Below are positions 31,451 to 62,530 of a stretch of DNA of 64,000 nt, piece by piece (within the stretch, counting starts at the first letter, position 1; every line of letters begins with the position of its first letter). The DNA is from Polynucleobacter sp. 30F-ANTBAC. Its GTDB lineage: Bacteria; Pseudomonadota; Gammaproteobacteria; Burkholderiales; Burkholderiaceae. The DNA is taken from positions 790,942 through 854,941 of the forward strand of contig NZ_JACVON010000001.1 of the NCBI RefSeq assembly GCF_018882385.1. Reading direction: 5' to 3'. A model generated the notes under the pieces. That model did no database searches, was not told the origin of the DNA, and was given only the letters and a program-made list of their open reading frames with translations. The translations under genes were made by a program, and so were the position numbers.

Positions 31451-32556
31451 GCATCCCATTCTTAGATCTAAAGTCCATCAACTTAAGACATCAAAAAGAA
31501 TTTCATCAAGCTCTTGATGAGGTTCTTGAAAGCGGATGGTTAGTTCTAGGAAAACAAACAACTCTTTTTGAAAATGAATTTGCAAATTACTGCGGTACAA
31601 AGTTTGCTGTTGGTGTGGCTAATGGCTTAGAAGCCTTAAGCTTGGTTTTAAGAGCATGGGATATTGGACCTGGAGATGAAGTTATCGTACCCTCCAACAC
31701 CTATATTGCCACATGGTTAGCTGTGACACATACCGGTGCCACACCCATTCCAGTTGAACCAAGACAACTCACTTTTAATATTAATCCTGAATTAATTGAA
31801 CCGGCTATTACAAGCAAAACAAAAGCGATCATCCCTGTTCACTTGTATGGTCAAGTGGCAGAAATGGATGCAATTAATACCATTGCCAAAAAATATAATT
31901 TAAAAGTTTTAGAGGATGGCGCTCAGGCTCAAGGAGCCATGTATAACAACATTAGAGTTGGTGCATTAGGAGATGCTGCCGGCATCAGCCTTTATCCGGG
32001 TAAAAATCTTGGCGCACTCGGTGATGCCGGAATTATTACTACCAGCGATCCTTTATTAGCTGAAAAACTTCGATCGCTCAGAAACTATGGCTCTCAAATT
32101 AAATATAAAAATGAACTAATTGGTTTTAATTCCAGATTAGATGAACTGCAATCAGCCTTCTTACGCATCAAACTTAACTATTTAGATGCAGACAACACCC
32201 GAAGACGTGAAATATCTAGAATGTATCAACAAGGTTTGTCAGATTCAAATTTAGGATTACCACATGAAATTAATGAATCTCATTCGGTATGGCACTTATA
32301 TGTTGTAACCCACCCGCAAAGGGACTTATTAAGTGAGCGCCTAAAAGAACTTGGAGTTGGCACCTTGATTCATTACCCTATTGCCCCTCACCTTCAGGAT
32401 GCTTATGCATCAATGAACCTAAAAGAAGGTACTTTCCCGATTGCAGAAAAAATGCATCGCACTGTATTAAGCCTGCCTATCAGCCCAGTAATGTCGAATG
32501 AAGAAGTACATCAAGTCATAGATTTGACTCGCAAAGCTTGCAGCCAGATTCTCTAA
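31447..32556 (+). CDS. DegT/DnrJ-type sugar aminotransferase (FdtB/QdtB-like)
   Basis: 369 residues, PLP-dependent. The catalytic lysine lies in [15 protein letters not shown] (K186). Other family marks are [18 protein letters not shown] and [13 protein letters not shown]. It would aminate the 3-keto intermediate made by the preceding ketoisomerase, with glutamate as donor, giving dTDP-3-amino-3,6-dideoxyhexose for the fused acetyltransferase. The start overlaps the preceding gene by four bases, so both are translated together. The rfbAB products at 37.8-40.9 kb supply the dTDP-4-keto-6-deoxyglucose precursor. Confidence 0.92.
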
Positions 32557-33134: not shown

Positions 33135-34106
33135 ATGGCAAAGCCTTTAGCATCTATTATTCTTTTAACCTTCAATCAAGAAAACTTGGTTGAAGAGTCT
33201 ATCGACAGCCTATTAAATCAAACCTACTCCCCTCTTGAAATCATTATTTCTGATGATCTATCAAGCGATCGCACTCGAGAAAAGATTCGATCAAAAATAT
33301 CCCAATATCATGGTCCCCATGAAATAAAAGTCATCTTTAATGATTCAAATGTGGGTTTATGTCAGAACATTAATCAGGCTATAGAGCACTGTCAGGGGGA
33401 GTTTATCTTTGCTGCGGCAGGCGATGATATTTCGCTACCCAATCGTTGCGAAATAGTCATGTCTGAATGGTTAAAGCTTAATAAACAGCCAGGATTGATT
33501 GCAACAGATGCTTATGACATGGCGATAGATGGGCATATATTAGGTATTAAAAGAACCTCGATCTTGCAGGAATACAAAGGTTTGCAAGACTGGATAAAAA
33601 GACCCCCTTATTTTTTTGGCAGCAGTCACTCTTGGTCCAGAAACTTTTTAAATAAATTCCCGCCCCTCAATCCTAAAATGATGGCGGAAGATCATCTCAT
33701 GGTTTTTAGGGCTCTCATTTCTGATGGCGGTTACACCATCTCAGAACCGCTCGTCAAACACCGTCGCGGCGGTGTGACCTTAAAAAGGTATATTGATTTA
33801 GCTACTAAAGCCAAAATTCTTAGAGTGGGCTTTAATGATAAATACATCTATCTGAAGCAACTTTTATCAGACGCCCAACACGATCATCATTTTTCAGAAC
33901 TTGAAAAACATTTACACCCCGAATTACAAGAGTGCCAATTAACTTTAGACCTCTACCAACTTAAAGACCCCATAAAAAAAATTATTCGTTGTTTTGCCAA
34001 CGATGGTGTTTCATTTTTCTTCAAAATGAGAATGCTCACTTACACAACATTCCCATGGGTACTTCAGCCCATATTTAAGTTAAAAAAGCTTATTAAGCGT
34101 TATTAG
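33135..34106 (+). CDS. Glycosyltransferase family 2
   Basis: 323 residues. The GT-A start ASIILLTFNQENLVEESIDSLLNQTYSPLEIIISDDLSSDRTREKI is classical, with AAAGDDISLPNRCEI as the DxD-like block. It should transfer a sugar from a nucleotide-sugar donor on the cytoplasmic face; donor and acceptor are unknown. The last 14 bases overlap the end of the convergent GT17 gene. Confidence 0.88.
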   Translation: MAKPLASIILLTFNQENLVEESIDSLLNQTYSPLEIIISDDLSSDRTREKIRSKISQYHGPHEIKVIFNDSNVGLCQNINQAIEHCQGEFIFAAAGDDISLPNRCEIVMSEWLKLNKQPGLIATDAYDMAIDGHILGIKRTSILQEYKGLQDWIKRPPYFFGSSHSWSRNFLNKFPPLNPKMMAEDHLMVFRALISDGGYTISEPLVKHRRGGVTLKRYIDLATKAKILRVGFNDKYIYLKQLLSDAQHDHHFSELEKHLHPELQECQLTLDLYQLKDPIKKIIRCFANDGVSFFFKMRMLTYTTFPWVLQPIFKLKKLIKRY

Positions 34107-34968
34107 CTTTTTCCTTAATAAAGGATTTGAACTTTTCCTGATTGTCGATAAGAAATTTGGGGAACTGTTCATCGATACTTTGTAACTCATACCGAGCGAA
34201 TGGTTTATTGAAATCTTGTCCAGATTGGATAAGCTTCATGAGTCTTTCGGGATTTTTATGCTCCTCGTTATTGAACTCCTGATGAGCGGTGTTCTCAATT
34301 TTCTTAATCAGATCCTCTAATGTGAAAATCCAAGTGAAATGCCAACCCCCATCTTTGATGGTTTGAACATGAAACCATCTAAACCAACTACGCTTGATTG
34401 ATCGTAATAAACCAGATGACTTATAAGATCGAACGCTGGTTGCATTTGAATTAAAGAAACTTGTGAAATGACTATAGGTGGTTATTTTGCTACCCTTCCA
34501 GATATTGCTACCAGGAATAAGTTTGCCTGAGGAGTTAACATCTCCGATCCAATAGTTATTTAAAAAATAGCTGTAATAACGTTGGTCAAAATCACCTCTT
34601 ATGTAATTGGTGTCGAATTCCATGATCTTTTTGGGCTCGGGAATCTCATCCAAATCTGAGACGATGATTAAATCATCCGGCCGGGCATCATACAAACCTT
34701 TAGAAACATTATTTCTTATGAAATTCTCATTTTTCCAGAAATCATTCGGGCCCGGTGGCCTCTCATGCAATGGTAAGTATCTGATCTTAGATTCAAACTT
34801 TTTAAATCGATTGATGTCAAAATGAAGTTCCCTGGCATTGCCGGCATGGCTATAACTTGCCTCAGAAATAACAAAATAATCAACGCTATCCCATAAAGTT
34901 TCTAATCTTAGTTCTAAGATATGGTCTTCATTAAAATAACAAAAACAGTCGTAAATACGTTTTTTCAT
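34093..34968 (-). CDS. Glycosyltransferase family 17-like protein
   Basis: 291 residues. IYDCFCYFNEDHILELRLETLWDSVDYFVISEASYSHAGNARELHF and DARPDDLIIVSDLDEIPEPKKI (the SDLDEIP block) match the GT17 family, best known for eukaryotic MGAT3 but also present in bacterial surface-glycan clusters. GGWHFTW near 205-211 is another family block. It probably adds a beta-linked sugar such as GlcNAc, but the bacterial specificity is unestablished. It is the only leftward gene within this part of the cluster and starts 36 bases from the divergent GT2 gene. Confidence 0.85.
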   Translation of the reverse strand: MKKRIYDCFCYFNEDHILELRLETLWDSVDYFVISEASYSHAGNARELHFDINRFKKFESKIRYLPLHERPPGPNDFWKNENFIRNNVSKGLYDARPDDLIIVSDLDEIPEPKKIMEFDTNYIRGDFDQRYYSYFLNNYWIGDVNSSGKLIPGSNIWKGSKITTYSHFTSFFNSNATSVRSYKSSGLLRSIKRSWFRWFHVQTIKDGGWHFTWIFTLEDLIKKIENTAHQEFNNEEHKNPERLMKLIQSGQDFNKPFARYELQSIDEQFPKFLIDNQEKFKSFIKEKANNA

Positions 34969-44471: not shown

Positions 44472-45038
44472 CTACTTAATATCTGAGCTGCAAAGCGTCT
44501 TCATAACCATATGCCCGAACATTAGATGTATATCCTCACAAAGTTGCATATCGAATGAGGGTACCCAAACGTTGTGATCACACAAGGGCATCATCTTTCC
44601 GCCATCATAGCCAACAACCCCAAGAACCTTTCCGCCTGCTCGGCGAGCAGATTCTATAGCCTTAATCACATTAGGCGAATTACCACTTCCACTGACTGCA
44701 ACAAGTAAGTCTCCTTCATCCATAAGCGCGTCGACTTGTCCTGCAAAAACGTCAGCGTAGGATAGGTCGTTTCCATACGCTGTGATTAGGCCAACATTGT
44801 CACAAAGTGATACACCCCGGAATTTTTTTCCTGTTGCAAGGCTCACCATTTTGTTCCAGTCGGTAATGTAGTGAGATGCAGTAGATGCACTTCCCCCATT
44901 GCCACAAGTAATGATTTTTTTGCCGCATTCAAACGCGACTTTTATCATCTCAATACCTTGCTGAAATGCATCAACGTCGAGCCGCCGTGCAAGTTGTTGG
45001 TGTGCATTTAGGTAATTTAAAACGGTGAAAGTTGTCAT
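44472..45038 (-). CDS. gmhA: Sedoheptulose-7-phosphate isomerase
   Basis: 188 residues, SIS domain. CGNGGSASTASHYITDW (45-61), GLITAYGNDLSYADVFAGQVDALMDEGDLLVAVSGSGNSPNV and QLCEDIHLMFGHM are GmhA blocks. It converts sedoheptulose 7-phosphate to D-glycero-D-manno-heptose 7-phosphate, the first step toward GDP-heptose. The next two steps are encoded just upstream in the same operon (HddA, six bases away, and the HddC-GmhB fusion). A second GmhA for the lipopolysaccharide ADP-heptose route is probably elsewhere. Confidence 0.92.
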   Translation of the reverse strand: MTTFTVLNYLNAHQQLARRLDVDAFQQGIEMIKVAFECGKKIITCGNGGSASTASHYITDWNKMVSLATGKKFRGVSLCDNVGLITAYGNDLSYADVFAGQVDALMDEGDLLVAVSGSGNSPNVIKAIESARRAGGKVLGVVGYDGGKMMPLCDHNVWVPSFDMQLCEDIHLMFGHMVMKTLCSSDIK

Positions 45039-45044
45039 ATGGAC

Positions 45045-46031
45045 TCACATTGATGGTTGATAAAAAATAATTTGCGCTCCGGTTCGATCAAAACGAAACT
45101 TGACGGGCTCAAGGTCAGATAAAGCGGCCTTAATCTGGGCATGCCTTTCTCTAGGCGCGTAAAACATCATGAAACCGCCGTTGCCAGCGCCCAGCAACTT
45201 GCCGCCTAAAGCACCGTGTGCCATGCCGGAAGCGTACCAAGCGTCGATTTGCGGATCTGTAATGCCTGAAGTCAACTGAGCCTTGAGGCGCCAGTTCTCG
45301 TCAAGCAGATTTCCAAGGTGCTCCAGTGTCCCTGATTCCAACTGCTCTTTCATCTCGAACGCTAATTGAACCATTCGGCGCATAAGAACGCGACGGTCGG
45401 TCGTCCTCATCGCCGCTGATTGGTTCATAAGCACTGCAGAAGCGCTTCGCGTACGGCCGGTAAAGAATATTAAGGTAGAGTCTTCCATCTCTTGAAGCAT
45501 ATGTGGCTTACAGATCACGGGGTCGACTGATACGGAATCATCAGGATGGAAACGGATCAAGTTGAGACCACCATAAGCTGCCGCATATTGGTCTTGCTTA
45601 CCGATAGGCTCGCCACAACGATCAATTTCGATTTGACATGCTTGTGATGCAAGTTTTTCCTTAGAGGCAAACTGATTACGATAAGCGTATAGCGCGTTCA
45701 AGAGGCCGACGGCGTAAGTGCTAGACGAACCTAACCCAGACCCCTTTGATGGGATATCCGCCATCGATGCTATTTCGATACCGCCATCAATACCTACTAA
45801 ATCTAGTGCTTCACGCACGAGAGGATGTTCTACCTCTTTACGGTGTTCGACGTCTTCCGTTTTGGTGTAACTAATGCGTATACGGCCGTCGAATTTTTTG
45901 TTAACGCAGATATACATATACTTGTCAATCGATGTCGACAGGACAGCGCCCACCTCTTCGCGATAGAAAGCGGGGAGATCGCTCCCCCCGCCTACAAAAC
46001 TCATTCTCAATGGGGTCTTACTGACAATCAT
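45045..46031 (-). CDS. hddA: D-glycero-D-manno-heptose 7-phosphate kinase (GHMP family)
   Basis: About 328 residues from ATG 46031, chosen for the AAGGAAAG sequence before it; a longer frame begins at 46073 inside the fused upstream gene. IVSKTPLRMSFVGGGSDLPAF, PSKGSGLGSSSTYAVG (95-108, the GHMP phosphate-binding loop) and KLLGAGNGGFMMFYAP are diagnostic of HddA. It phosphorylates the anomeric hydroxyl to the 1,7-bisphosphate. It precedes gmhA and follows the HddC-GmhB fusion gene. Confidence 0.92.
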   Translation of the reverse strand: MIVSKTPLRMSFVGGGSDLPAFYREEVGAVLSTSIDKYMYICVNKKFDGRIRISYTKTEDVEHRKEVEHPLVREALDLVGIDGGIEIASMADIPSKGSGLGSSSTYAVGLLNALYAYRNQFASKEKLASQACQIEIDRCGEPIGKQDQYAAAYGGLNLIRFHPDDSVSVDPVICKPHMLQEMEDSTLIFFTGRTRSASAVLMNQSAAMRTTDRRVLMRRMVQLAFEMKEQLESGTLEHLGNLLDENWRLKAQLTSGITDPQIDAWYASGMAHGALGGKLLGAGNGGFMMFYAPRERHAQIKAALSDLEPVKFRFDRTGAQIIFYQPSM

Positions 46032-46041
46032 TATTCTTTCC

Positions 46042-47967
46042 TTAAGATTCTTGGCCAATAACAAAGTCCGCATGCATCCTCGATTGCCCTACGATCGGGA
46101 CTTCATCGAGTTCCCGCGACGCCAGGGTAGCGAACTGCTCCTCGGACAAAAAGCCACGCCAAGCGTAATCCTGATTCAGACGGATCTCACGCGTATCGCG
46201 CGAAACGTCCACGTAGATCTTGATAACGCCAGACAGACCTAGCAGATCGTCCATAAGAAGTGCGGGTACACCCTCAACGATAAGTACGTCGTTCGGGCCA
46301 AGGGAATGTTCTATTTGCTGTTTGTCGGCGTCACGTACTAAACGGTCGTATAAAGGCTCGCGAAGAGTAACCCGAGCGCTTGATTTAGCTACATAAGCAA
46401 TGGCAGCTGACGCTGTAGCCAAGTCGTAACGGCTGCGAACACCTATGCCCTCTCTACGTTCAGACTTAGGCTTAAGCCAACCATCCAACGAGATGACATG
46501 TGCTTTACGGCCAAGCATATGTAGAAGTTCCTTCAATACCTGCGCAGCATAGCTCTTTCCAGTTCGAGCAAGACCGCCGATAAGCACAAGGCGACAGCCA
46601 TGGCTCACCTCGATGGCGATCGGCGCAAGGCGTCTGGTCAGATCCGCGTGTCCACTCAGGATCCAGTCGATAGCGTCCGCGAGGTCAGGCGCTGTGTAGT
46701 CGGGTCGAACAGCATATTTAGCGTCTGCACCACCATGCCCGCTGCGCAGTAGTATGGTGCGCACCCCAGCACGACGACCAGCCTCAACATCGGAAGTCGC
46801 ATCCCCAACCATCCAGGAGTCCTGACGGCCTATGCCTAGATCAGAGCAGGCTTTATCAATTAAACCAGGCTCAGGCTTGCGACAGTTGCAGCAACCTTTA
46901 AGCTCCACAATCTCACCTGGGAACCCCTTATCAGGATGGTGCGGGCAAAAATAAAGGCTGTCGATAAATGCACCTTCAGCGCCAAGCTGAGATTCCATTC
47001 TGGCGTGGATGTTCCTCAGTCCCTCGATGCTAACATCACCGCGCGCAACCACAGGCTGGTTAGTAACGACCACGGCCAACGTACCGCTACAGTTAAGACG
47101 GCGGATAGCTGCAGCGGTACCGGGCAACAACTCAATCTGATCAGGCAACTTGAGATGAGTAACTTCCCGGTTAATGGTGCCATCACGATCAAGGAAAACA
47201 GCACTCCGAAGTTGACGACCAGAGAGACGTTCTGGCAAGCCAGTTAAAAAGTCACGCTCGACTTTATCAAGTCTTTCTGGAGTACCCATGTCCTTAATAT
47301 ATTCAGGTGACACGTAACCATATAGGGGGCGGCCGAGATCAAGCATGCGAGGGAACATGTGCTTAGCAATGTCAGCTTTCCCTTCGGCAGGCGTGACATC
47401 CTCCAGTCCGGCACGATTGAGGACATATAGCGCCGCATTGACGAGGTTACGCACTTCGCGCCCCTCTGGGTGTGGATAAGGCAGAATCTCTCGGACCATA
47501 CCGATCTTATCAATATCAACGATGTCAGAGTCATGGGGGTGGTCATTGGGATGTAGAAACAGGGTGCCAACGGCACCAGAGGATTCGTGCGCCATCCAAA
47601 GCTTGCGCAAGTCCACGTCCATAAACGTGTCGCCGTAGAGGACCAGGATACGATCGGCGAGCATAGGGAGCGCATCATGCAGAGCACCAGCGGTCCCGCG
47701 AGGCTTGTCTTCAATAGCATATTTAAGATTGACGCCAAAGGCTGATCCATCACCGAAATACTCTGATATTTTTTCGTAACGATGCTGGACTAGGAGAGCA
47801 ATGTCTGTAAAACCGTGCTTGCGGCACAGTTCGATCTGATGGTGCAGAACAGGCTTTCCCAACACTGGAACCATCGGTTTGGGCATGTCACCACTGCGCT
47901 CGCGCAAACGGGTACCCATACCGCCCGCAAGGATAGCAACCTGACACTTCTTAGTAGTTTTAATCAT
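46042..47967 (-). CDS. Three-domain fusion: heptose-1-P nucleotidyltransferase (HddC), GmhB phosphatase, P-loop kinase-like domain
   Basis: 641 residues. Domain 1 (about 1-245) is a sugar-1-phosphate nucleotidyltransferase: AILAGGMGTRLRERSGDMPKPMVPVLGKPVL and VLYGDTFMDVD, as in GDP-D,D-heptose pyrophosphorylase HddC. Domain 2 (about 255-440) is a HAD phosphatase like GmhB: FLDRDGTINRE (Asp260, Asp262), zinc-site CPHHPDKG and GCCNCRKPEPG, and MVGDATSDVEAGRRAG. Domain 3 (about 455-641) is a uridine-kinase-like P-loop NTPase: GGLARTGKS (464-472), VISLDGWLKPKSERREG, VLIVEGVPALLMDD and DQDYAWRGF-like NQDYAWRGF. The first two supply the remaining steps to GDP-D-glycero-D-manno-heptose. The third has no known place in that pathway. 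The gene is GC-rich compared with its neighbours. Confidence 0.9.
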   Translation of the reverse strand: MIKTTKKCQVAILAGGMGTRLRERSGDMPKPMVPVLGKPVLHHQIELCRKHGFTDIALLVQHRYEKISEYFGDGSAFGVNLKYAIEDKPRGTAGALHDALPMLADRILVLYGDTFMDVDLRKLWMAHESSGAVGTLFLHPNDHPHDSDIVDIDKIGMVREILPYPHPEGREVRNLVNAALYVLNRAGLEDVTPAEGKADIAKHMFPRMLDLGRPLYGYVSPEYIKDMGTPERLDKVERDFLTGLPERLSGRQLRSAVFLDRDGTINREVTHLKLPDQIELLPGTAAAIRRLNCSGTLAVVVTNQPVVARGDVSIEGLRNIHARMESQLGAEGAFIDSLYFCPHHPDKGFPGEIVELKGCCNCRKPEPGLIDKACSDLGIGRQDSWMVGDATSDVEAGRRAGVRTILLRSGHGGADAKYAVRPDYTAPDLADAIDWILSGHADLTRRLAPIAIEVSHGCRLVLIGGLARTGKSYAAQVLKELLHMLGRKAHVISLDGWLKPKSERREGIGVRSRYDLATASAAIAYVAKSSARVTLREPLYDRLVRDADKQQIEHSLGPNDVLIVEGVPALLMDDLLGLSGVIKIYVDVSRDTREIRLNQDYAWRGFLSEEQFATLASRELDEVPIVGQSRMHADFVIGQES

Positions 47968-50655: not shown

Positions 50656-52032
50656 TTGATTAAAAAAAATAAGTCTTACATAAATTTAGAAATTTCATGT
50701 TTATCCATATGTGTTTTATTTATAGGATTTTTTAATGATTTCCCACTGATAAATTCAGATAGTGCAATGTTTAGAAGTCCGAGCGTATTCTTTATGTGGA
50801 TCTCATCATTCATTTTCTTAGCTAATATCATTAACGGAAAGAAAATTATTAATTTTAAACTCCAAGATGTGAATTTATGGTTATTTTTTTTCTTTATATG
50901 GATAATTATATCGACAATACTATCAGTTTATCAATCTTCCTATATAAATTCAATAAAAATTAGCGGTTTATCTATTGGCATGAATGGTCTGAGGAATTAT
51001 ATTTTAATTTCAACTTTTTTATTATTAGTAATAAATCTTCATGGGCAACAAGACAAAATAATATATAGGATATCTAAGTATTTTATATACTCTTTTTATT
51101 TGACTATACCTTATTCCATTTTAGAATTATTTGTTTATATATTTAATATTGACTTAGCCAGAGTATTACTTAATATTTCCGACACGTATCTACATGCAAG
51201 AAGAGGTATTGAGTATTTAGATATCAATAGAGTAAGAGGTTTATCCTTTGAACCTTCTTATTACGGTGTATATATTGCAACCATACTACCTTTTATTTTG
51301 GCAAGAAGCTCCATAACTAAATTTAAATTTTTTTATAAAACATTAATTTTATTTTTAATTTTATGTCTTATATATAGTCAATCAAGAACTGCTTATGTCG
51401 CTATATTAATTCAAATAATATTTTTTTATTATCTAAAAATAAAATATATTTCTAAAAACTATGGGCTATTTAGCCTCAAAAATGTGATGCTATTTATTAT
51501 TATAATTTTATTTTTCTTAATCTTACAGGGTGAAAATGTTATTTCACTCACATATCAATCCCTTTTAGACCCAACACTATCATCAAACATTACTAGGGTT
51601 GGAGCTCAATACGCCGGCTTTCTAGTTGGTTTAGATAACCCGATTCTCGGTGTAGGGCCCGGTATGGCAGGCGCTTATGTTCATAACTACTACCCAGAAT
51701 ATATGTTTTTAAGCGATGAAATTGACTCATGGATATCAGCCGGGGTTACAGATTTGTCAGCCCCAACCTTTGGTTTTTTCTCAACACTAACAGCAGAGCT
51801 TGGTCTAGTGGGGCTTACATTATTCTTTATTGCACTTATAAAAATTGGCAATAAATTACTGAATACCATTCAACTTTCCAGCTTAACCGATATTAAATAT
51901 TCTTTATATGGTATTGCTATTTTTTCTGCAAATATCGGCCTATATGTATCAAGCTTTGGTTTGAACGGTACAACTTATGTTGGTTACTGGATACTATTGT
52001 CGATTGCTCTTTTGTATACTAGAGGTAAATAA
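50656..52032 (+). CDS. wzy: O-antigen polymerase Wzy-like protein
   Basis: 458 residues, about 12 membrane helices, very AT-rich coding sequence. DINRVRGLSFEPSYYGVYIATILPFILARS and the later GFLVGLDNPILGVGPGMAGAYVHNYYPEY are the periplasmic-loop patterns of Wzy-type polymerases. The start is a TTG at 50656 (the first internal ATG is 37 codons later, inside the first helices). It is the only rightward gene in a 20-kb leftward block and overlaps the end of the next GT2 gene by 39 bases, so it needs its own promoter in the 23 bases left of its start or inside the preceding gene. Confidence 0.85.
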   Translation: MIKKNKSYINLEISCLSICVLFIGFFNDFPLINSDSAMFRSPSVFFMWISSFIFLANIINGKKIINFKLQDVNLWLFFFFIWIIISTILSVYQSSYINSIKISGLSIGMNGLRNYILISTFLLLVINLHGQQDKIIYRISKYFIYSFYLTIPYSILELFVYIFNIDLARVLLNISDTYLHARRGIEYLDINRVRGLSFEPSYYGVYIATILPFILARSSITKFKFFYKTLILFLILCLIYSQSRTAYVAILIQIIFFYYLKIKYISKNYGLFSLKNVMLFIIIILFFLILQGENVISLTYQSLLDPTLSSNITRVGAQYAGFLVGLDNPILGVGPGMAGAYVHNYYPEYMFLSDEIDSWISAGVTDLSAPTFGFFSTLTAELGLVGLTLFFIALIKIGNKLLNTIQLSSLTDIKYSLYGIAIFSANIGLYVSSFGLNGTTYVGYWILLSIALLYTRGK

Positions 52033-53026: not shown

Positions 53027-53953
53027 TCATTTAATAAAGTATTTAAAATAAATAAATCTTACTGCTCTTATAAAGCCTGTCAGAATATCCCGCTTACTTA
53101 ACTCTTTGACAAAAGGCAAGAGCTTAAAATTTAAGTCAATAAATGAAAAAATGAATATTAAAGTGGCGAGATTCTCACTCTCCTCACGTGTTCGATTTAT
53201 ACCGATAAAATTTTGAATTGCAATTAATATTTGAGTTTTATTTGACTCTATAAACTCAGAAGAAATTTTATATGCATCGCATCTTACTTCTTTGAGCAAA
53301 GTTTTGGATAAAGAGACTTCATGTTCTCTGTATTTAAAAATCCAATCATTAACATTACAAAATTTCCCTCCTAATGAGTATATTAAGGCCCATAGCGCAT
53401 AATCCTCTGAACTTTGATACTTACTTGCGCCATACCTAATGCCATGTTTATCTATAAAATCAGCCCTAAACATTACTGATCCATGTGCAAATGGAACATT
53501 TAGTGATAAAGCTAATAACATAGAATAGTCTGAGCATGGAACAACTCTAGAGCCCAGATACTCATCAGAGCTTCCTATTATAAAATAATGGCCCCCACAA
53601 ACATCCGCAGAAGTTGATTCCATCAATTTAACCTGCTTTTCAAATCTGTCTGGGATACTTATATCATCAGAATCCATCCTAGCTAAATAAATACCATTAG
53701 CCTTATCTAAGGCATCATTGAGAGCACCTATAAGCCCTCGATTAGACCCCTTTATTATTTTTATTCTAGAGTCAATATTTGAGTACTCTGTTAGTATTTC
53801 AAGTGTTTTGTCATCAGAATCATCATACACCGCCAAAACTTCGAAGCTTTTTAATGACTGAGAAATTATGGAATTCAAGCAAGCAGATAGATATTTTTCA
53901 CATTTATATACTGGCAGCAATACTGAAACTAGAACAACGCTGTTATTTTCCAT
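53027..53953 (-). CDS. Glycosyltransferase family 2
   Basis: 308 residues. LVSVLLPVYKCEKYLSACLNSIISQSLKSFEVLAVYDDSDDKTLEIL and YLARMDSDDISIPDRFEKQVKLMES are the GT2 nucleotide- and metal-binding blocks; SSEDYALWALIYSLGGKF follows. The paralogue next to it (51994-53022) differs in the middle, so different acceptors are likely. Four bases separate the two genes. Confidence 0.88.
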   Translation of the reverse strand: MENNSVVLVSVLLPVYKCEKYLSACLNSIISQSLKSFEVLAVYDDSDDKTLEILTEYSNIDSRIKIIKGSNRGLIGALNDALDKANGIYLARMDSDDISIPDRFEKQVKLMESTSADVCGGHYFIIGSSDEYLGSRVVPCSDYSMLLALSLNVPFAHGSVMFRADFIDKHGIRYGASKYQSSEDYALWALIYSLGGKFCNVNDWIFKYREHEVSLSKTLLKEVRCDAYKISSEFIESNKTQILIAIQNFIGINRTREESENLATLIFIFSFIDLNFKLLPFVKELSKRDILTGFIRAVRFIYFKYFIK

Positions 53954-53981: not shown

Positions 53982-54845
53982 TTAGATGCGGAGCCATCTA
54001 TCTGGGACAATATAATCACTTGATACTTCTGTTGAAGCAAACCATTTTTTCGGCGCAATCACAATTTTATTTTTATTGTTAGATAACCAAGCACCCCACC
54101 AGCTAAAAGTACTATTAGCAATTATATGATGCTTGCATTGTGACATTAAGTAAATATCTACTTCAGGATATTTATCGTTTCCACTTACAAACGTCACATT
54201 ATCCCCAAATAGAATATTATCTCTTGCCCAATTAAGATCATCCGAGAATATGAAAAAATAAGGATTATTGATCTTATTATTTATTAGTGAATAAGCTGTC
54301 TCATAATAGCCAATATCACAGAGACCATGAATAATCATATTCTGAGGGCTAGATAAATAGTCACCCCTTCGAATATGAACCATGACACTTTCATGCTCTT
54401 TAATTTTATCTAGGATTTTTAGATTTTTTTCAGATAACTTATTTTGAGGAATAAACTCTAGTTTTAATTTTTCATAAACAGATTGGAAATATACTTCACT
54501 CTGAAAGTATCCATCCAATAAACAAGATCTATTAATTTCAGAAAGATGTTTTACATCCTTTTTTTTCTCTCTATACCATCTGCAGGGTAGACCAATCATG
54601 GACAGAAACTCATATGGTCTTCTCATTATATGAGGCCACCAAATAAGATCATTTTTATCAGCGATTTTTGCTGTGATGCGAAACTTATTTAATCCATATT
54701 TATGGACTTTGTAATTATCGAACAACCTCAGATCTAACAGCAAATCAAAATCCAATTCATCTGCTAGAGCACGAGCTGCTGCATATTGAAACATTTGGTT
54801 ACCCAAACCACCTATCAATCTAATGATTATTTTATTTTTCATCAC
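53982..54845 (-). CDS. Family 11 (alpha-1,2-fucosyl/colitosyl) glycosyltransferase
   Basis: 287 residues. IIIRLIGGLGNQMFQYAAARALA (about 6-28), HIRRGDYLS (157-165) and NSTFSWWGAWLS (244-255) are the conserved blocks of GT11, whose best known members transfer L-fucose from GDP-fucose in alpha-1,2 linkage. In this operon the GDP-sugar route ends in ColD/ColC-type enzymes, so the natural donor is more likely GDP-L-colitose, which some GT11 enzymes accept. It overlaps the start region of the Wzx gene by 14 bases. Confidence 0.92.
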   Translation of the reverse strand: MMKNKIIIRLIGGLGNQMFQYAAARALADELDFDLLLDLRLFDNYKVHKYGLNKFRITAKIADKNDLIWWPHIMRRPYEFLSMIGLPCRWYREKKKDVKHLSEINRSCLLDGYFQSEVYFQSVYEKLKLEFIPQNKLSEKNLKILDKIKEHESVMVHIRRGDYLSSPQNMIIHGLCDIGYYETAYSLINNKINNPYFFIFSDDLNWARDNILFGDNVTFVSGNDKYPEVDIYLMSQCKHHIIANSTFSWWGAWLSNNKNKIVIAPKKWFASTEVSSDYIVPDRWLRI

Positions 54846-56262
54846 GCAATTTGACCGAGACTAATCTTCTTAACGATTTACTGGTTAGAGTCATAATGGA
54901 TACGAATATTAGGGTGAAAGTTCCGAATATCAATATATCAAGAAAAGCATCAAATGTATTATTAGCATTAAAAGGCATAAAGACTGACATTAGAATTGAT
55001 AGCCCAATCATAAAAAACCCCAAACCCCATCTCTTCCAATCTAATCTCAGCCTATAAAGATATATTGCTTTAAATGTCATCAATAAGAACATAACTATAG
55101 AAGAACACAATAGTGATATAAGGGCAAAATTTAAATTTAAATTGAGCGTATAAATTAAAAATAAGCCAACTGCAAATAATAAACTTGCAATTAAATAGGG
55201 CATGATTACACTGGAAATTTTCTTTTCAATTTGAGCACCATTCCCATATAAATTGGTTATAGCTCTTGAACATTCTATAATAGCGCCAAAAATTACAAAA
55301 ATGCTGGCATTGCTATATACATCCGTAACTAATAATTTTAAAAGTAGGGATGCCACATATATATTCGATGCACATAATACTAAATATATAGGTCCAAGCG
55401 TATTTACAAGATCAGAGTAGGCTTTATATCCCAATCCGATTTTACCCAAACTAATTCTTCTATAAAAATATGGATTTAAAAACTGAATGCCTAATATCTC
55501 AATAATCGCCCAGATTGCAGAAGATACCCCCATTCCAACTACCAGATATCCTAAACTTTCTAATCCCCATTGAGATTCAAAATATATTCTATAACCACTA
55601 GTTAACCACCAAATAAAAAATGTTGAAATTGCTAGTGGGCATATATAGTTTTTTAACACATCTTTTTCTAGCAAGTTAAGACTACCTGTTGAAAAAAATT
55701 GTAATTTCTTTTCGAGCTGATACTTAGCACCCATGTACCCAACTAACATAGCAACAGCTTGCCCCCAAAACCAATACAGCCCCTCAGGATGAAATTGTAT
55801 TAATACACTAGAAAAAAGTAAGCCTAAAATTGAAGTTAAACTCAACCACAATACGGATTCAAATCTATATCCCATCATGTTTAATATTGCTATATATGTA
55901 GCATTTAAAGTTCCAAAAAGAACCATTGTAAAAATAGCTAACTCATACCCCAAATAGGGCGAAATAATTTCTGATTCATTTTTTAACCAAATATAAACAA
56001 TGAGACCACTTATAAATCCAACAAAGATTAAATAAGTTAAATATCGCTGCAATTTAGAAAATAGTGTTTTATGATCAATCCACTCATGAGTGTGTCTATT
56101 AATATATTGACCAACTGGATTGATTAAAAACAGTCCACAAAATGATTGAATTGAAATCAATACGGCTAAAATGCCATACTCATATGGAATCAGAAATGAT
56201 GTAGATAATCTTATTGATAAAATCCCAACAATAGCTGTTATAAATCTACCAGTAAGAATCAA
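54832..56262 (-). CDS. wzx: Wzx-type polysaccharide flippase
   Basis: 476 residues, about 12-14 membrane helices throughout (e.g. FITAIVGILSIRLSTSFLIPYEYGILAVLISIQSF at the start). It resembles the MATE-like flippase (polysaccharide biosynthesis) family that moves Und-PP-linked O-units across the inner membrane. No sharply diagnostic motif exists, so the call rests on topology and its position between glycosyltransferases and near Wzy. It is the only candidate flippase in the window. Confidence 0.82.
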   Translation of the reverse strand: MILTGRFITAIVGILSIRLSTSFLIPYEYGILAVLISIQSFCGLFLINPVGQYINRHTHEWIDHKTLFSKLQRYLTYLIFVGFISGLIVYIWLKNESEIISPYLGYELAIFTMVLFGTLNATYIAILNMMGYRFESVLWLSLTSILGLLFSSVLIQFHPEGLYWFWGQAVAMLVGYMGAKYQLEKKLQFFSTGSLNLLEKDVLKNYICPLAISTFFIWWLTSGYRIYFESQWGLESLGYLVVGMGVSSAIWAIIEILGIQFLNPYFYRRISLGKIGLGYKAYSDLVNTLGPIYLVLCASNIYVASLLLKLLVTDVYSNASIFVIFGAIIECSRAITNLYGNGAQIEKKISSVIMPYLIASLLFAVGLFLIYTLNLNLNFALISLLCSSIVMFLLMTFKAIYLYRLRLDWKRWGLGFFMIGLSILMSVFMPFNANNTFDAFLDILIFGTFTLIFVSIMTLTSKSLRRLVSVKLRDEK

Positions 56263-56344
56263 AAAAAATGATTTATCTATGCCTAACTTTCACTCAAATA
56301 CTAATTAATAAAAACTTAAAAATCTATTCGGTGATTTAAATATA

Positions 56345-57340
56345 TCAAACAGATATACTTAAATCACCAATTAAATCATCAACCACATTTTTTGCAAAAC
56401 TTTTATCACTTAATTTAAAAGCCATTTCTGATTGGAGAAATTTATATATATTATCTTGATATGTTCTATATTTTAAATAATCAATGTTTTGTAAGAAATC
56501 TAGCATTGAATTTAAAGATTTAAAATTTCTATAATCTATATATGTTTCTTTGGGAATAAAATTATCTATGTTATTTGGTCCCCAGTATATAGGCACACAA
56601 CCACTTACAAAAGAATCAAATATTTTCTCAGTTATATAATTATTGGACACAACGTTTTCTAAACAAAATGAGAATTTTGACTGACTTAATATATCTGATT
56701 TACATAATACTTTTCCTTTATACACTCGCAAAGGAAAGACTGCTCTACCAATTTTTAAAATATTAAATAGCTTTTTAATCACATTATTAAATAGGAAAGG
56801 TGCATCCCAACCTGAACCATAGAGCTCAAATGAATCAATGTTATTTTTTTCAAACCACTTTATTATTTTAAATCGCTCTTGATATAGAACTTTAGATGAA
56901 GGTAATTCAGCTATTTTGTTTCCCGCAACCATAACAGAAAATTTCTTTCTGTCATCAAAGCTATTAGAAAAATCATTATTTACATTAATATTATTAGGGA
57001 AACTTACATACCTTGATTTGTAAATGTTAAGAATTTCCTCATTCCAGGTATAGATTTTTTTAAATTTTTTTAGGTTATCTTTTTTGTAGGCTTTTTTTTG
57101 TATGTATTTAGTTTCAAAAATAACACCATATTCTTCTTTATGTCCTGCATACAGCCCTGTAATATTTAAAACGGCGTCATTATGATTTTTATGATTATTT
57201 GATAAATCATAGCCGCGCTCTTTAAAATAAGACTTTAAATAACGAACATAATTCAAACAGTTATCTCTATTGCCGATGTAACTATCTGAAAAAATTACAT
57301 CTTTGCCCTCAGTCCAATCTATAAGAAGTATTTTTCTCAA
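56345..57340 (-). CDS. Family 10 (alpha-1,3-fucosyltransferase-like) glycosyltransferase
   Basis: 331 residues. The C-terminal donor-binding block KFSFCLENVVSNNYITEKIFDSFVSGCVPIYWGPNNIDNFIP (222-263) is the definitive GT10 signature, as in Helicobacter and eukaryotic Lewis-type alpha-1,3/4-fucosyltransferases. YNLELYGSGW-like FELYGSGWDAPF lies at 171-182. Donor would be a GDP-6-deoxy-L-galactose or GDP-colitose. With GT11 in the same operon, a Lewis-like branched structure is plausible. Very AT-rich gene; starts four bases inside the preceding acetyltransferase gene. Confidence 0.92.
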   Translation of the reverse strand: MRKILLIDWTEGKDVIFSDSYIGNRDNCLNYVRYLKSYFKERGYDLSNNHKNHNDAVLNITGLYAGHKEEYGVIFETKYIQKKAYKKDNLKKFKKIYTWNEEILNIYKSRYVSFPNNINVNNDFSNSFDDRKKFSVMVAGNKIAELPSSKVLYQERFKIIKWFEKNNIDSFELYGSGWDAPFLFNNVIKKLFNILKIGRAVFPLRVYKGKVLCKSDILSQSKFSFCLENVVSNNYITEKIFDSFVSGCVPIYWGPNNIDNFIPKETYIDYRNFKSLNSMLDFLQNIDYLKYRTYQDNIYKFLQSEMAFKLSDKSFAKNVVDDLIGDLSISV

Positions 57341-57876
57341 TTTCGAGCACCGATTTTCTTTGCAGGAACCCCTGCATAAATAGAGTAACTTTCCACATCC
57401 TTTGTCACAACTGAACCGGCTCCGATTACCGCGCCTCTGCCTATTCTAACTCCATCAACTATGGTCACATTTGACCCTATCCACACATCATCTTCAATAA
57501 CCGTTCCCAAAATTTCCAATTCATTGTCAACTATTTTTATATAACATGGCTTTATTTTATGACTTGCGCCAGGTATAGAGACTCCGGGACCTATTGCAAC
57601 ATCACTTCCAATCTTAACAACTCCACATATGAAAGAGCGAACTCCAAGCCAAGTATTATTTCCTACCTCTAGACTAATTGGATCAATGTGGCAATAACTA
57701 GGGACTGAAACAGAGTTTCCAAACTTTATGTTTTTTTTATTTTTTATGTATGTATATTCACCTATGTAAATTTTATTTCCTATTGTTTTATACAAATTTT
57801 TATATAAAAAAACGTGTATTAATCCTCTTATTGTGGGGCGGTATACTCTATATAAATTTAGCAACTTATCTAACAA
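57337..57876 (-). CDS. Hexapeptide-repeat acetyltransferase (colanic-acid WcaB/F-like)
   Basis: 179 residues of beta-helix: IGEYTYIKNKKNIKFGNSVSVPSYCHIDPISLEVGNNTWLGVRSFICGVVKIGSDVAIGPGVSIPGASHKI, then [51 protein letters not shown]. The SHKI loop provides the catalytic His. It probably O-acetylates a sugar of the same O-unit. One base separates it from the ColD-type gene upstream and it overlaps the GT10 gene by four bases. Confidence 0.86.
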   Translation of the reverse strand: MLDKLLNLYRVYRPTIRGLIHVFLYKNLYKTIGNKIYIGEYTYIKNKKNIKFGNSVSVPSYCHIDPISLEVGNNTWLGVRSFICGVVKIGSDVAIGPGVSIPGASHKIKPCYIKIVDNELEILGTVIEDDVWIGSNVTIVDGVRIGRGAVIGAGSVVTKDVESYSIYAGVPAKKIGARN

Positions 57877-57877
57877 T

Positions 57878-59044
57878 TTAGATAGATCCTAGAATATTTA
57901 TGGCATCGTGTATTGGGTAATGGTGATTACCTACAAACAAGCCATTTCGATCAATATGATCAGCGTTTTTCAAATTTCCATGTACTTCTGAATCAAAGTA
58001 TTTTACAACCTCATTCTTCGAAAAATTTCCCGCTACTATAGGGCGGCATTCAAAGCCAAATTTGTTCAACTTAGAAATCAATAATTTTCTCGTTAACTTA
58101 CTTCCTGGACGTATAACTAAACTAAAGCCAAACCAACTGCTTTCACCAATTTCCTGTTGAATTATTAGCTCTGGGTGATTAGCCATCGTAAGTTGCAATA
58201 ATTTTCCATTCTCTCTACGAGACTCGATTAAAGTAGGCAGACGTTTTACCTGTTCCACACCTAATGCACCCTCAATTTCAAGTGGTCGGACGTTATACCC
58301 AGGCAAAATAAAACGGAAAGACTCCTCAAACGGATCATCACTTTTATCACTGCAAACTAGATTTTTCTGGGGTAAGTTACGCGTCCAACCATGCGCTCTA
58401 AGAGAGAGAAGAATTTGATATAACTCTTCATCATCAGTGACAATTATCCCGCCCTCCATTGTGGAAATATGATGGCTAAAAAAAGAACTATACCCACCCA
58501 TAACCCCGAAGGTACCAGCTTGCTTACCTTCATATCTTGCCCCCATTGACTCGCAATTATCTTCTAGTAACACTATTTTTCGGTCACCAATAATTTCATT
58601 AATACGTCTAAAATCATTAGGGTTACCCAACAAATTAACGGCCATAATAGCCTTTGTTTGATCGGTGACAGCTTGTGCTAATTGATCGAGGTCATAATTT
58701 AATGTATTTAAATCAATATCCACAAACTTGATTTTCAAACCATACTGATACAAAGGATAAAAAGTTGTGCTCCAAGATACAGCAGGGACAATAACTTCAT
58801 CACCACGCTTCAGTTTCAGATCTAAGTTTTTAGTGTAAAACAACGCAGCAACCATTAACAAAATGGCCGATGACCCAGAATTCACCATTACACAATATTT
58901 GCTTCCAACATACTTAGCAAAATCATTTTCGAATGCTTTAACGTTTTCACCCATAGTGAACATACCCGATGCAATAACTCTCTGCATTGCGTCCTGCTCT
59001 TCTTGCCCCCAAGTTGCTGTAGCCAATGGAAATCTAATAGCCAT
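57878..59044 (-). CDS. colD: GDP-4-keto-6-deoxy-D-mannose 3-dehydratase (ColD type)
   Basis: 388 residues, aminotransferase fold. Where DegT/DnrJ enzymes have the PLP lysine, this one has SSFFSHHISTMEGGIIVTD: His191-His192 instead of Lys, the special feature of ColD (active-site base His188 in E. coli). The following DEELYQILLSLRAHGWTRNLPQKN and LPGYNVRPLEIEGALGVEQ also agree with ColD. It would remove the 3-hydroxyl, giving GDP-4-keto-3,6-dideoxymannose. By contrast the aminotransferase at 31447-32556 keeps its lysine (K186). It lies with gmd and a reductase-type gene, so GDP-L-colitose is the predicted product. Confidence 0.92.
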   Translation of the reverse strand: MAIRFPLATATWGQEEQDAMQRVIASGMFTMGENVKAFENDFAKYVGSKYCVMVNSGSSAILLMVAALFYTKNLDLKLKRGDEVIVPAVSWSTTFYPLYQYGLKIKFVDIDLNTLNYDLDQLAQAVTDQTKAIMAVNLLGNPNDFRRINEIIGDRKIVLLEDNCESMGARYEGKQAGTFGVMGGYSSFFSHHISTMEGGIIVTDDEELYQILLSLRAHGWTRNLPQKNLVCSDKSDDPFEESFRFILPGYNVRPLEIEGALGVEQVKRLPTLIESRRENGKLLQLTMANHPELIIQQEIGESSWFGFSLVIRPGSKLTRKLLISKLNKFGFECRPIVAGNFSKNEVVKYFDSEVHGNLKNADHIDRNGLFVGNHHYPIHDAINILGSI

Positions 59045-59976
59045 TACATATATTCCTTCAAATAAAATTCATAAGTTTTATTAATCCCAGCAGTTAGATC
59101 ATGCTTAGCAGTCCAACCCCATGAGATCTGACGATTCACATTAACTAATTTACGCGCCATGCCAACAGGCTTAGTAAGGTCATGAATGAATGTTCCCTGA
59201 AAATTCATTACTTCAGCAACAGTCTGATAGTACTCATTGATTGTGTAATCATGTCCCAACCCTATGTTCATATAGTAAGGCAATGAATCAAACTGATTAA
59301 TGGACTCAATAACCGCATCCGCTAAATCACCGGAGTACATAAATTCACGACGTGCTGTGCCATCTCCCCAAATTTCTACAGTTTTTTCATTATTTTTTTT
59401 GGCTTGATGTACCTTATGAATAATTGCTGGCAAAAGATGCGAATGCTTAGGGTCAAACTTATCATGCCGCCCATAAAGATTACATGGGATTAGTGTCTTA
59501 TATTGGTAAGATGCATCCTCTCGAGTAACATATTCACATAGCTTTGCAGTCAACACTTTAGCTAAAGCATATCCCTCGTTCGTAGGCTCAAGCTCCCCCT
59601 TAAGAATCATCTCTTCCTTTAGTGGTTCTTCATGTCCACGTGGATACATACAAGAACTACCTAAATTAATAAATTTCTTAATACCTGCTTGGCGTGATGC
59701 CCAGACAATATTACGGCCCATATCCAAATTTTCCAATAAAAATCCGACTGGTTCTCGCATATTTGCCTGGATGCCACCAACTTTTCCAGCAGCATGAATT
59801 ACAAAATTTGGTCGATACTTGTCTAAATAGGTTTTAATGGCATCAAAATTCCGAAGATCAAGTTCGGCACTTCGAGGAGCTAGGATATCAAACTCATCAA
59901 TTGCTGAATGCTCAAGAATATTTCGCCCAACCATTCCACCACCACCGGTTAATAGAACTTTTAGTTTAGTCATCAC
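59044..59976 (-). CDS. colC: GDP-sugar epimerase-reductase (ColC/Fcl type)
   Basis: 310 residues, SDR. VLLTGGGGMVGRNILEH, HAAGKVGGIQANMREPVGFL, NLGSSCMYPRGHEEPLKE and YALAKVLTAKLC (Tyr-x3-Lys), with LIPCNLYGRHDKFDPKHSHLLPAIIHK, are shared by GDP-fucose synthase (Fcl) and GDP-colitose synthase (ColC). The one-base overlap with the ColD-type gene favours ColC: 5-epimerisation and 4-reduction to GDP-L-colitose. Fcl cannot be ruled out by sequence alone because the families are so alike. Confidence 0.85.
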   Translation of the reverse strand: MMTKLKVLLTGGGGMVGRNILEHSAIDEFDILAPRSAELDLRNFDAIKTYLDKYRPNFVIHAAGKVGGIQANMREPVGFLLENLDMGRNIVWASRQAGIKKFINLGSSCMYPRGHEEPLKEEMILKGELEPTNEGYALAKVLTAKLCEYVTREDASYQYKTLIPCNLYGRHDKFDPKHSHLLPAIIHKVHQAKKNNEKTVEIWGDGTARREFMYSGDLADAVIESINQFDSLPYYMNIGLGHDYTINEYYQTVAEVMNFQGTFIHDLTKPVGMARKLVNVNRQISWGWTAKHDLTAGINKTYEFYLKEYM

Positions 59977-59987
59977 ATCTAACCAAG

Positions 59988-61073
59988 TTACTCTTGTGGC
60001 CGGAATACAGCATAACCATTCTTCCTAATCAACTCATCACGCTCTGCGCCAATTAAGTCTTCTTGAACCATCTCAGTCACTAACTCATTAAATGTAATTT
60101 TTGGCGTCCAACCAAGTTTTTCTCTTGCCTTAGTGGCATCTCCGAGAAGTGTTTCTACTTCTGTAGGCCTAAAATAACGGGGATCAACTGCAACAATACA
60201 TTTTCCAGATGCATCAAAACCCTTCTCTTCAACACCACGGCCAGACCATACAATATCGATACCAAGCTCTTTTGCTGCTGCATTTACAAAATCTCTAACG
60301 CTATATTGAACACCCGTAGCAATAACAAAATCTTCTGGATTTTCTTGTTGAAGCATCATCCATTGCATTTCAACATAATCTTTGGCATGACCCCAATCCC
60401 GCAAAGAGTCCATATTCCCTAAATACAAACATTCTTGAAGACCTAATTTAATTCTGGCTAAAGCACGAGTAATCTTTCTAGTAACAAATGTTTCACCACG
60501 AATAGGTGATTCGTGATTAAACAAAATTCCATTACAGGCATAAATACCATAAGCTTCACGATAGTTAACAGTTATCCAATAGGCATAAAGTTTTGCAACA
60601 GCATAAGGACTTCTTGGATAAAAAGGGGTTGTTTCTTTTTGTGGAATCTCCTGAACCAATCCGTATAATTCAGATGTTGATGCTTGATAAAAACGAGTTT
60701 TTTTAGTCAATCCTAAGATTCGAATTGCCTCTAGAATTCGTAACGCACCAAGAGCATCTGAGTTTGCCGTATATTCAGGCTCCTCAAAAGATACAGCCAC
60801 ATGGCTCTGCGCTGCCAAATTGTAGATTTCATCAGGCTGAACCTTCTGAATAATGTGTGTTAGGCTAGACGAATCAGTCATATCGCCATGATGTAAATAA
60901 AAGGGTCTTCCTTTTTCATGTACATCATGAAACAAATGATCTATACGTGCAGTATTAAATAATGAGCTGCGGCGCTTAATGCCATGCACCTCATAACCTT
61001 TATCGAGCAACATTTCAGCAAGATATGCTCCATCTTGACCAGTAACACCAGTAATTAAGGCTACTTTAGCCAT
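59988..61073 (-). CDS. gmd: GDP-mannose 4,6-dehydratase
   Basis: 361 residues, [36 protein letters not shown] (5-37) is the diagnostic start; [38 protein letters not shown] and [16 protein letters not shown] (Tyr-x3-Lys) follow. It makes GDP-4-keto-6-deoxy-D-mannose, used by the ColD/ColC-type pair downstream. Two bases after the manC stop, in the same operon. Confidence 0.97.
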
Positions 61074-61075
61074 AT

Positions 61076-62530
61076 TTAATTAGTCCTTCCATATGTATCT
61101 TCAAATCTAACAATATCATCTTCACCCAAATAACTACCTGACTGAACCTCAATAATTTCTAGAGGAACAACACCAGGATTTCTTAGGCGATGAGTTTGCC
61201 CCTGCGGTATATAAGTTGATTGATTTTCAGCCAACATAATTACATTTTCACCATTCGTAATTTCAGCTGTACCTCTCACCACAATCCAATGCTCAGCACG
61301 ATGGTGATGCATCTGTAGACTTAATGAAGCGCCAGGTTTCACCATGATGCGTTTTACTTTAAATCGCTCACCTTCATCAATACTGTCATACCAACCCCAA
61401 GGGCGAGCCACTTTACGATGAAGATCTTTTTCTTCACGTTTTTGTTGCTCTAATTGAGTAACAATTTTTTTAACATGCTGGCTTTGATTCTTATCAGCCA
61501 CCAAAATAGCGTCAGCTGTCTCAACAATCACTAGATTATCTAAACCAACAGCACTTACTAAACGAGTGCTGGCATGGATATAGGTATTAGTGGTATCTAC
61601 TAAGAGCGTATCGCCATTTGTCACATTACCATCGCCATCAGTGACACCTACTTGCCAAACAGCATCCCAAGCACCCAAATCATTCCAACCCGCATTGAGC
61701 GGCATCATCTTGATCGCGATATCAGAGCGCGGACATTTTTCCATGACTGCATAGTCAATCGATTCGGATGGAATCGCAGTAAATGATTCTTTATGAGGTC
61801 GCACAAAAGGTGCATCTGTTTTTTTATCAGCCCAAGACTTTTCGCAAGCCTGTGCAATATCCGGTCTAAATTGTTTTAAAGCTTTTAACCAAACACTCGC
61901 CTTCAAAACAAACATGCCACCATTCCACGAATAGTCGTCACTCGCTAAATAACCTTGTGCAGTTTCTGAATCAGGTTTCTCTGCAAACTGAGCAACGGTA
62001 TATTCGCCAAAGCTACCAATAGTTCCTGTGCGCTGTATATAGCCATAACCAGTTTCAGGTTTGGTGGGTGTGATACCTAAAATAACAATTGCGCCCGTAT
62101 CAGCAACTCTAATACTTTTTTGTAAAGCCTCTGTAAAGGCTGCGCCATCCACCACTGTTTGATCTGCAGGCGTCACCACTAAAACTGGATCGCGACCATC
62201 TTCTATCGCTTGTAAGGCAGCAATCGTTAACGCAGGGGCTGTATTACGACCCACGGGTTCTAGCAATAAAATAGCTGCCACATCATTCATTTCTCGCAAT
62301 TGATCGAGTGCCAAGAAACGATGTTCTTCATTGGTCACCACTAAAGTCTCGCCCAAAGCAATATCAGAAGTAGCTAAGCCATTCACACGATCAACCGCTT
62401 GCTGGAACAAACTCGTTGTTCCTGATAAAACTAAAAATTGCTTAGGAAATCCAGCACGAGACAAGGGCCATAAACGTGTACCAGAACCACCACACAAAAT
62501 AACAGGGGTCACTTGAATGGTTTGGCTCAT
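61076..62530 (-). CDS. manC: Mannose-1-phosphate guanylyltransferase / mannose-6-phosphate isomerase
   Basis: 484 residues, bifunctional. The N-terminal GDP-mannose pyrophosphorylase domain has [24 protein letters not shown] (11-34, Lys30). The C-terminal cupin-type isomerase has [43 protein letters not shown] with the metal-binding His cluster, and [13 protein letters not shown]. It supplies GDP-mannose to Gmd. It is the first structural gene after the regulator, 71 bases downstream. Confidence 0.97.

Follow-up and report, generated by a model that had tools for sequence, protein, structure and literature searches.

A probable GDP-L-colitose pathway and two predicted colitosyltransferases in an O-antigen locus of Polynucleobacter

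Introduction

Which deoxy sugar does an O-antigen locus transfer when two of its glycosyltransferases (GTs) belong to families named for fucose transfer (GT11 and GT10) and its sugar nucleotide enzymes resemble those that form colitose (3,6-dideoxy-L-galactose)? The question is posed by Polynucleobacter sp. 30F-ANTBAC, in which a tight run of genes on the minus strand (53982-62530), with several neighbours overlapping by a few bases, lies within a window of 64,000 nucleotides (the whole stretch of DNA analysed here; contig NZ_JACVON010000001.1, positions 790,942 to 854,941). In transcription order, the run includes manC, gmd, colC, colD, an acetyltransferase gene, GT10, wzx and GT11, followed by GT2 genes. 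A preliminary description, made from the sequence alone, proposed that a probable GDP-L-colitose pathway feeds both GT11 and GT10. All genes are confirmed at the positions given there, and it is now rather likely that this O-antigen locus makes GDP-L-colitose and that both enzymes use it. GDP-colitose synthesis by the locus, in a genome where no fucose donor is found, is well supported on sequence grounds, while the presence of two colitosyltransferases is predicted as likely.

Probable GDP-L-colitose biosynthesis

The protein encoded at 57878-59044 (minus strand) is well supported as ColD, a predicted GDP-4-keto-6-deoxymannose 3-dehydratase of the pyridoxamine/pyridoxal 5'-phosphate (PMP/PLP) type. 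It matches Escherichia coli ColD (WbdK, structure 2gms) with 552 bits over residues 3-385, which is nearly full length, and is 63% identical to the ColD of both E. coli O55 and O111. The runner-up scores are those of E1 (180 bits) and perosamine synthetase (105 bits), and either identity is ruled out by comparison with the 552 bits. The motif SHHISTMEGG begins at residue 190, so that its histidine pair is 191-192; His191 replaces the lysine of PLP aminotransferases, as the preliminary description had recognized, and aligns with the column that is altered in the ColD structure 3b8x. In excerpts of the review PMC8987622, loss of the C3 hydroxyl is initiated by a catalytic histidine, H188 in ColD, and the iron-sulphur cluster of E1 is said to be missing from ColD.

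The adjacent protein at 59044-59976 (minus strand) is well supported as ColC, the C5-epimerase/C4-reductase type of GDP-L-colitose synthase, and not Fcl. Against the Fcl model NF047922 it scores 307.6 bits, under the curated cut-off of 500. Among 151 genomes of the genus, matches to this model form two groups, one of 465-522 bits (97 genomes, Fcl-type) and one of 167-310 bits (ColC-type), the latter present in all six genomes with ColD and in no others; its lowest score (167 bits, in G105) is that of an interrupted gene, and matches below both groups are other short-chain dehydrogenases/reductases (SDRs) or fragments. The ColC-type matches of another 50 ColD genomes score 289-328 bits. Overall, intact ColC proteins score 284-328 bits versus at least 410 for near full-length Fcl, with no full-length match between. 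Assignment as Fcl-type followed the bit score or, where a match was short, the bits per position; by this measure, the 50 ColD genomes include five with scores of at least 410 bits (G524, G525, G537, G552 and G555), a contig-end fragment (G539) and a split gene (G544) that were counted as Fcl-type. Within the genus, a contig-end fragment of a genome without GT10 (G088; 121 bits over 91 positions) was not counted. One of the ColD genomes (G520) has an extra, distant match (225 bits) that falls outside both the Fcl and the ColC group.

The placement of the protein among ColC versus Fcl, which the preliminary description had named as a check, is with known ColC and away from Fcl. In a quick tree of 35 rows, hand-picked from about 120 matches and with two long outside rows, 18 ColD-adjacent proteins including E. 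coli O111 ColC fall on one side of a branch with a Shimodaira-Hasegawa-like approximate likelihood ratio (SH-aLRT) of 98; on the other side are 15 Fcl proteins with E. coli WcaG, plus two distant SDRs. The window ColC is 52% identical to both O55 and O111 ColC and, when aligned with E. coli Fcl, keeps S107, Y136, K140, C109 and H180. The first three correspond to the reductase triad of Fcl, and C109 and H180 to its epimerase Cys/His pair; with both sets kept, ColC should both epimerise and reduce.

The neighbours of ColD expected for such a pathway are both above their NCBIfam cut-offs: gmd (59988-61073, minus strand), for GDP-mannose 4,6-dehydratase, with 590.8 bits against TIGR01472 (cut-off 415), and manC (61076-62530, minus strand), for mannose-1-phosphate guanylyltransferase/mannose-6-phosphate isomerase, with 652.6 bits against TIGR01479 (cut-off 373). 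In the proposed pathway, ManC would supply GDP-mannose, which Gmd would convert to GDP-4-keto-6-deoxymannose; ColD, with a PMP cofactor and His191, would remove the 3-hydroxyl; and ColC would carry out C5-epimerisation and C4-reduction to form GDP-L-colitose.

The genome of the window (1.96 Mb in 16 contigs, 99.99% complete) has one GT10, and its phosphomannomutase-type genes are on another contig. A genome-wide search with the Fcl model finds no true Fcl, the single ColC-type match (307 bits) being followed by one of 50 bits. Thus, the earlier statement that no second Fcl-type enzyme is seen extends from the window to the whole genome, and the separate fcl gene named there as evidence against the proposal does not appear. 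A search of the same genome for the Fucose_pyrophosphorylase domain likewise finds none. With neither found, GDP-L-colitose is the only donor of its kind that the genome is predicted to make, and the probable colitose pathway of the preliminary description stands.

GT11 and GT10 enzymes

Both GT families assigned to the run are above their Pfam cut-offs. The GT11 enzyme (53982-54845, minus strand), a predicted alpha-1,2-colitosyltransferase, scores 135.4 bits against PF01531, has the motifs HIRRGDY and NSTFSWWGAW, and is 40% identical over 98% of its length to the GT11 that belongs to the colitose cluster of E. coli O55. By gene order, the latter is presumably WbgN. The GT10 enzyme (56345-57340, minus strand) is predicted to transfer colitose in alpha-1,3/4 linkage, probably to N-acetylglucosamine (GlcNAc). 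It scores 61.5 bits against PF00852 (cut-off 23.9), its donor-side motif LENVVSNNYITEKIFDSFVSGCVPIYWG is intact, and its full-length predicted structure has 16-21% identity over the fold alignment to Helicobacter pylori FucT and human FUT9.

Association of GT10 with colitose genes

In the genus, GT10 occurs in 80 of 151 genomes (79 above cut-off), and 74 of these 80 have an Fcl-type protein or ColD: 72 have Fcl-type and three have ColD (G000, G002 and G095), with G002 having both. The remaining six are fragmented drafts of 77-96% completeness. The pattern indicates that GT10 follows the supply of a GDP-deoxygalactose, and for G000 and G095 colitose is the only such supply found. In Polynucleobacter G002, the true Fcl lies 16 kb from ColC-ColD, and GT10 and GT11 are 16 kb beyond (L122-L124).

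With ColD as the starting point, the comparison covers 80 ColD loci (L012-L091) that are the best 80 of 500 and, thus, lean to close relatives. Of the 45 genomes of L012-L056, 38 have no Fcl-type match; GT10 is present in 20 of the 38, and in 18 of those 20 it is within 15 kb of ColC. Five more genomes (L060, L074, L079, L081 and L083) joined the set of 50 because a GT10-like gene was seen there, and stand outside this count. No Fucose_pyrophosphorylase match above cut-off is found in 28 genomes with GT10 and ColD, with one match below it (G304). When the window GT10 is used as a query against 369 genomes of the class (E 1e-15), three relatives are found besides itself. The two strong ones (G443 and G304, about 149 bits) are directly after ColD or one gene away, in genomes without Fcl, and the third (G182, 61 bits) is in a genome that has Fcl.

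The gene order ColD, acetyltransferase or other open reading frame (ORF), GT10, Wzx and GT11 recurs in six lineages (L013, L018, L024, L036, L038 and L046), namely an uncultured proteobacterium, Pseudomonas marginalis (whose genome encodes Fcl as well), a member of the Rhodocyclaceae, Sulfuriferula, Methylophilus and Parvibium. Between ColD and GT10 is a matching acetyltransferase (L013, L018, L036 and L038) or an unmatched ORF (L024 and L046), and GT11 is followed by GT2 immediately (L024 and L036) or one ORF further on (L013, L018, L038 and L046). Identity to the window is 60-91% for gmd, colC and colD and 48-54% for manC where found, and falls to 32-35% for GT10, 32-38% for Wzx and 35-47% for GT11. 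That the order is retained despite such divergence suggests a functional unit.

In Polynucleobacter G105 (L129, G105:C1:230000-248000), the order gmd-colC-colD-GT10-wzx-GT11 is present with gmd, colC, colD and wzx interrupted or short, which would be either a decaying colitose cluster or sequencing errors. Fifteen loci (L012, L016, L019-L021, L023, L028, L030, L031, L035, L040, L044, L047, L051 and L065) carry, at a distance of about 2-5 kb from ColD (on its upstream side in L019), a second, remoter ColD homologue that scores 162-188 bits in frames of at least about 436 aa. The homologue is of RfbH/E1 size, and two different dideoxyhexose pathways perhaps share one cluster at these loci.

Alternative explanations

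Several observations weigh against colitose use by both enzymes, most of them concerning GT10. The window GT10 has diverged far (its identity reaches about 34% at most, its branch length is 2.0 and its letter make-up is odd) and falls, unstarred (83/95), among Fcl-linked GT10s of its own genus. In the GT10 tree, ColD-linked and Fcl-linked rows are clustered, yet not separate; the ColD label needs six changes, and there is no single colitose clade. Frames shorter than 230 aa and duplicates of the window gene had been removed before the 45 GT10 rows were listed, and the tree omits six low-scoring rows (L154, L092, L155, L093, L079 and L081). In the alignment, no column separates 13 Fcl-linked from 11 ColD-linked GT10s (29 of the 45 rows used). 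With mixed clustering and the window row on a long branch, GT10 phylogeny is undecided as a donor test. Since neither tree nor columns separate the donors, donor specificity is unreadable from GT10 sequence, and it is donor supply and gene order that carry the case for colitose. The claim that both transferases use colitose, thus, gains from these two lines and draws no support from the GT sequences themselves.

Other points against this claim concern distribution and enzyme tolerance. By Pfam, GT10 is absent from 23 of the 50 ColD genomes and, among the six Polynucleobacter genomes with ColD, from three. The Pfam search misses some GT10-like frames caught by a custom profile (a short one in G105, which is one of these three, and one at a contig end in L019). 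For Polynucleobacter sp. MG-27-Goln-C1, ColD and GT11 are found without a GT10. No completeness values are given for the 50 ColD genomes and, thus, some Fcl absences may be gaps. WbgN is described as having GDP-colitose as its natural donor, tolerating GDP-fucose and being active only on a type-1 acceptor (PMC12723683), and both WbgN and human FUT2 as accepting GDP-colitose, GDP-fucose and GDP-L-galactose (PMC12409901); donor choice may, thus, be set by supply.

Of the alternatives, the one that survives best, though unlikely, is that GT11 alone uses colitose and GT10 takes another donor or is inactive. The long branch and odd letter make-up of GT10 would fit this alternative, as would its GC content (26%, the lowest of eleven genes measured) and the precedent that the characterised colitosyltransferase is a GT11. 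The donor-side motif of GT10 is intact, however, its predicted full-length model appears to have the GT10 fold, the gene holds the same place in six other lineages and no other GDP-deoxygalactose source is found in its own genome.

A less probable alternative, which we regard as doubtful, is that the Gmd product is also a direct substrate for reduction by ColC, so that GDP-fucose and GDP-colitose are both made and the GTs use them mixed or one each. While ColC has the Fcl active-site residues, WbgN and FUT2 accept either donor in the sources cited above, and the GT10 sequence does not discriminate donors, the gap in Fcl-model scores between intact ColC and Fcl speaks against such a dual role, as does the retention of a separate Fcl alongside ColC in Polynucleobacter G002.

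Very improbable is the action of ColD and ColC on GDP-4-keto-6-deoxy-heptose to form a 3,6-dideoxyheptose, as by ColD-type enzymes of Campylobacter jejuni HS:5/HS:11: while GmhA-like, HddA-like kinase and nucleotidyltransferase-HAD genes resembling a GDP-D-manno-heptose pathway lie in the same cluster (44472-47967), and excerpts of PMC10440746 put the C. jejuni heptose C3-dehydratases at 62-67% identity to the E. coli and Yersinia enzymes, the genes manC, gmd, colC and colD are adjacent in one unit at least 10 kb from the heptose-type genes (10-13 kb from colD), no HddA-like gene is found (E 1e-15) in the 80 ColD loci, which extend at most 10 kb to either side and are in some cases much shorter, C. 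jejuni HS:5/HS:11 employ a separate C5-epimerase according to the same excerpts, and C109 and H180 are retained in the window ColC, which groups with that of E. coli. The 80-locus search finds a GmhA-like gene in L056 and L072 and a nucleotidyltransferase-like gene in L022.

Predicted product and neighbouring genes

In the preferred reading, in which both GTs use GDP-L-colitose, GT11 would add colitose in alpha-1,2 linkage to galactose (Gal) and GT10 would add colitose to the neighbouring GlcNAc, in alpha-1,4 linkage if the core is Gal-beta-1,3-GlcNAc. Such a core, modified by both enzymes, would have the shape of Lewis b with colitose replacing both fucoses; an H/Lewis-like acceptor is plausible. 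The candidate for the beta-1,3-Gal (or glucose, Glc) transferase of this acceptor is a GT2 enzyme (GT2a; 53027-53953, minus strand), which is 37% identical over 67% to the transferase after wzx in E. coli O55 and has DSDD at residue 94. By gene order, the O55 transferase is presumably WbgO. An excerpt of PMC4202792 ties the DxDD motif to beta-1,3 Gal/Glc transferases; as DxDD also occurs in two of three further GT2 proteins inspected, the motif is a weak pointer to the role of GT2a.

Two genes of the run add to those listed in the preliminary description. A hexapeptide O-acetyltransferase (57337-57876, minus strand; PF00132, 67.8 bits) probably decorates the O unit. A Wzx-type flippase, which would flip the unit, is predicted at 54832-56262 (minus strand) from size, position and kinship to same-place genes elsewhere (36-38% identity over 99% of the length to those of L013, L018, L024 and L036); Pfam and NCBIfam searches give it no family match. 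The unit would then be polymerised by a Wzy-type O-antigen polymerase encoded on the opposite, plus strand (50656-52032; PF04932, 35.2 bits, cut-off 31.7).

The GDP-heptose-type genes (44472-47967, minus strand), also beyond the earlier gene list, encode GmhA-like and HddA-like proteins plus a 641-aa protein that fuses a nucleotidyltransferase, a HAD phosphatase and a C-terminal stretch. This stretch has no Pfam match at 1e-5 and opens with a P-loop-like GGLARTGKS. Together the genes probably form a GDP-D-manno-heptose set, in which the three-part fusion is unusual. In a section of the region with the other orientation lies a second DegT/DnrJ aminotransferase (31447-32556, plus strand; PF01041, 373 bits), followed by a hexapeptide acetyltransferase. 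At 34093-34968 (minus strand) is a GT17-family domain (PF04724, 74.6 bits). The GT17 family is known mostly from eukaryotic GlcNAc transfer.

Implications

These findings suggest that double colitosylation is common in environmental Proteobacteria. The chances are about even for a broader proposal: that naturally colitose-transferring GT10s are widespread in these bacteria, in a recurring ColD-acetyltransferase-GT10-Wzx-GT11 cassette whose product is the colitose counterpart of Lewis b (H plus Lewis); that the donor is set by the partner reductase (ColC or Fcl) and not by GT sequence; and that a given GT10 lineage can, accordingly, change between the two sugars, fucose and colitose. GT10 genes from genomes in which no fucose donor is found are candidates for a GT10 colitosyltransferase, and allow a clean test of whether the enzyme itself or the available sugar determines the donor used by GT10/GT11. 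Colitose surfaces might evade fucose-binding lectins and phages, and the switch would then have an ecological explanation. Among the open-licence PMC papers searched, none has both 'colitose' and 'GT10', and nothing joins Polynucleobacter with lipopolysaccharide, O-antigen and genomic island.

Comparison with known systems

The E. coli O55/O111 clusters resemble the window in having manC and adjacent colC-colD, with gmd in the O111 stretch, and O55 shares the related GT11 and GT2 (40% and 37% identical to the GT11 and GT2a of the window). By contrast, no GT10 is annotated in the E. coli stretches examined, and a phosphomannomutase gene is present where none is seen in the window cluster. In two E. 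coli with O111-type clusters (L132 and L151), the colanic-acid gmd is annotated as incomplete, insertion elements lie between wcaF and galF and no fcl is annotated in that interval; the only intact gmd in the examined stretches is that of the colitose cluster.

C. jejuni HS:5 has a PLP-dependent, ColD-related C3-dehydratase that also acts on a GDP-4-keto-6-deoxy sugar; it differs from the window in its heptose substrate and in using a separate C5-epimerase and C4-reductase. H. pylori FucT and human FUT9 share the C-terminal domain and the motif with the window GT10 and may share its modelled fold, but have only 16-21% identity to it over the fold alignment, and the window enzyme is predicted to use GDP-colitose.

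At the level of glycan structure, there is a likeness to the Vibrio cholerae O139 capsule and the Aeromonas trota O-polysaccharide, which share a tetrasaccharide of Gal, GlcNAc and two terminal colitoses according to an excerpt of PMC3210612; two colitoses in O139 are also described in a part of PMC8386440. O139 differs in having a cyclic phosphate, and a gene for its second colitose was not found in the literature, the O139 sequence itself not having been searched for it. As the two-colitose fragment is shared by these organisms, the product predicted here is known chemistry, and with the GT11 colitosyltransferase WbgN also characterised, the terms 'unusual' and 'striking' of the preliminary description were too strong. 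What is new is the probable spread of the two-colitose product, together with the GT10 genes now named as candidates for making it.

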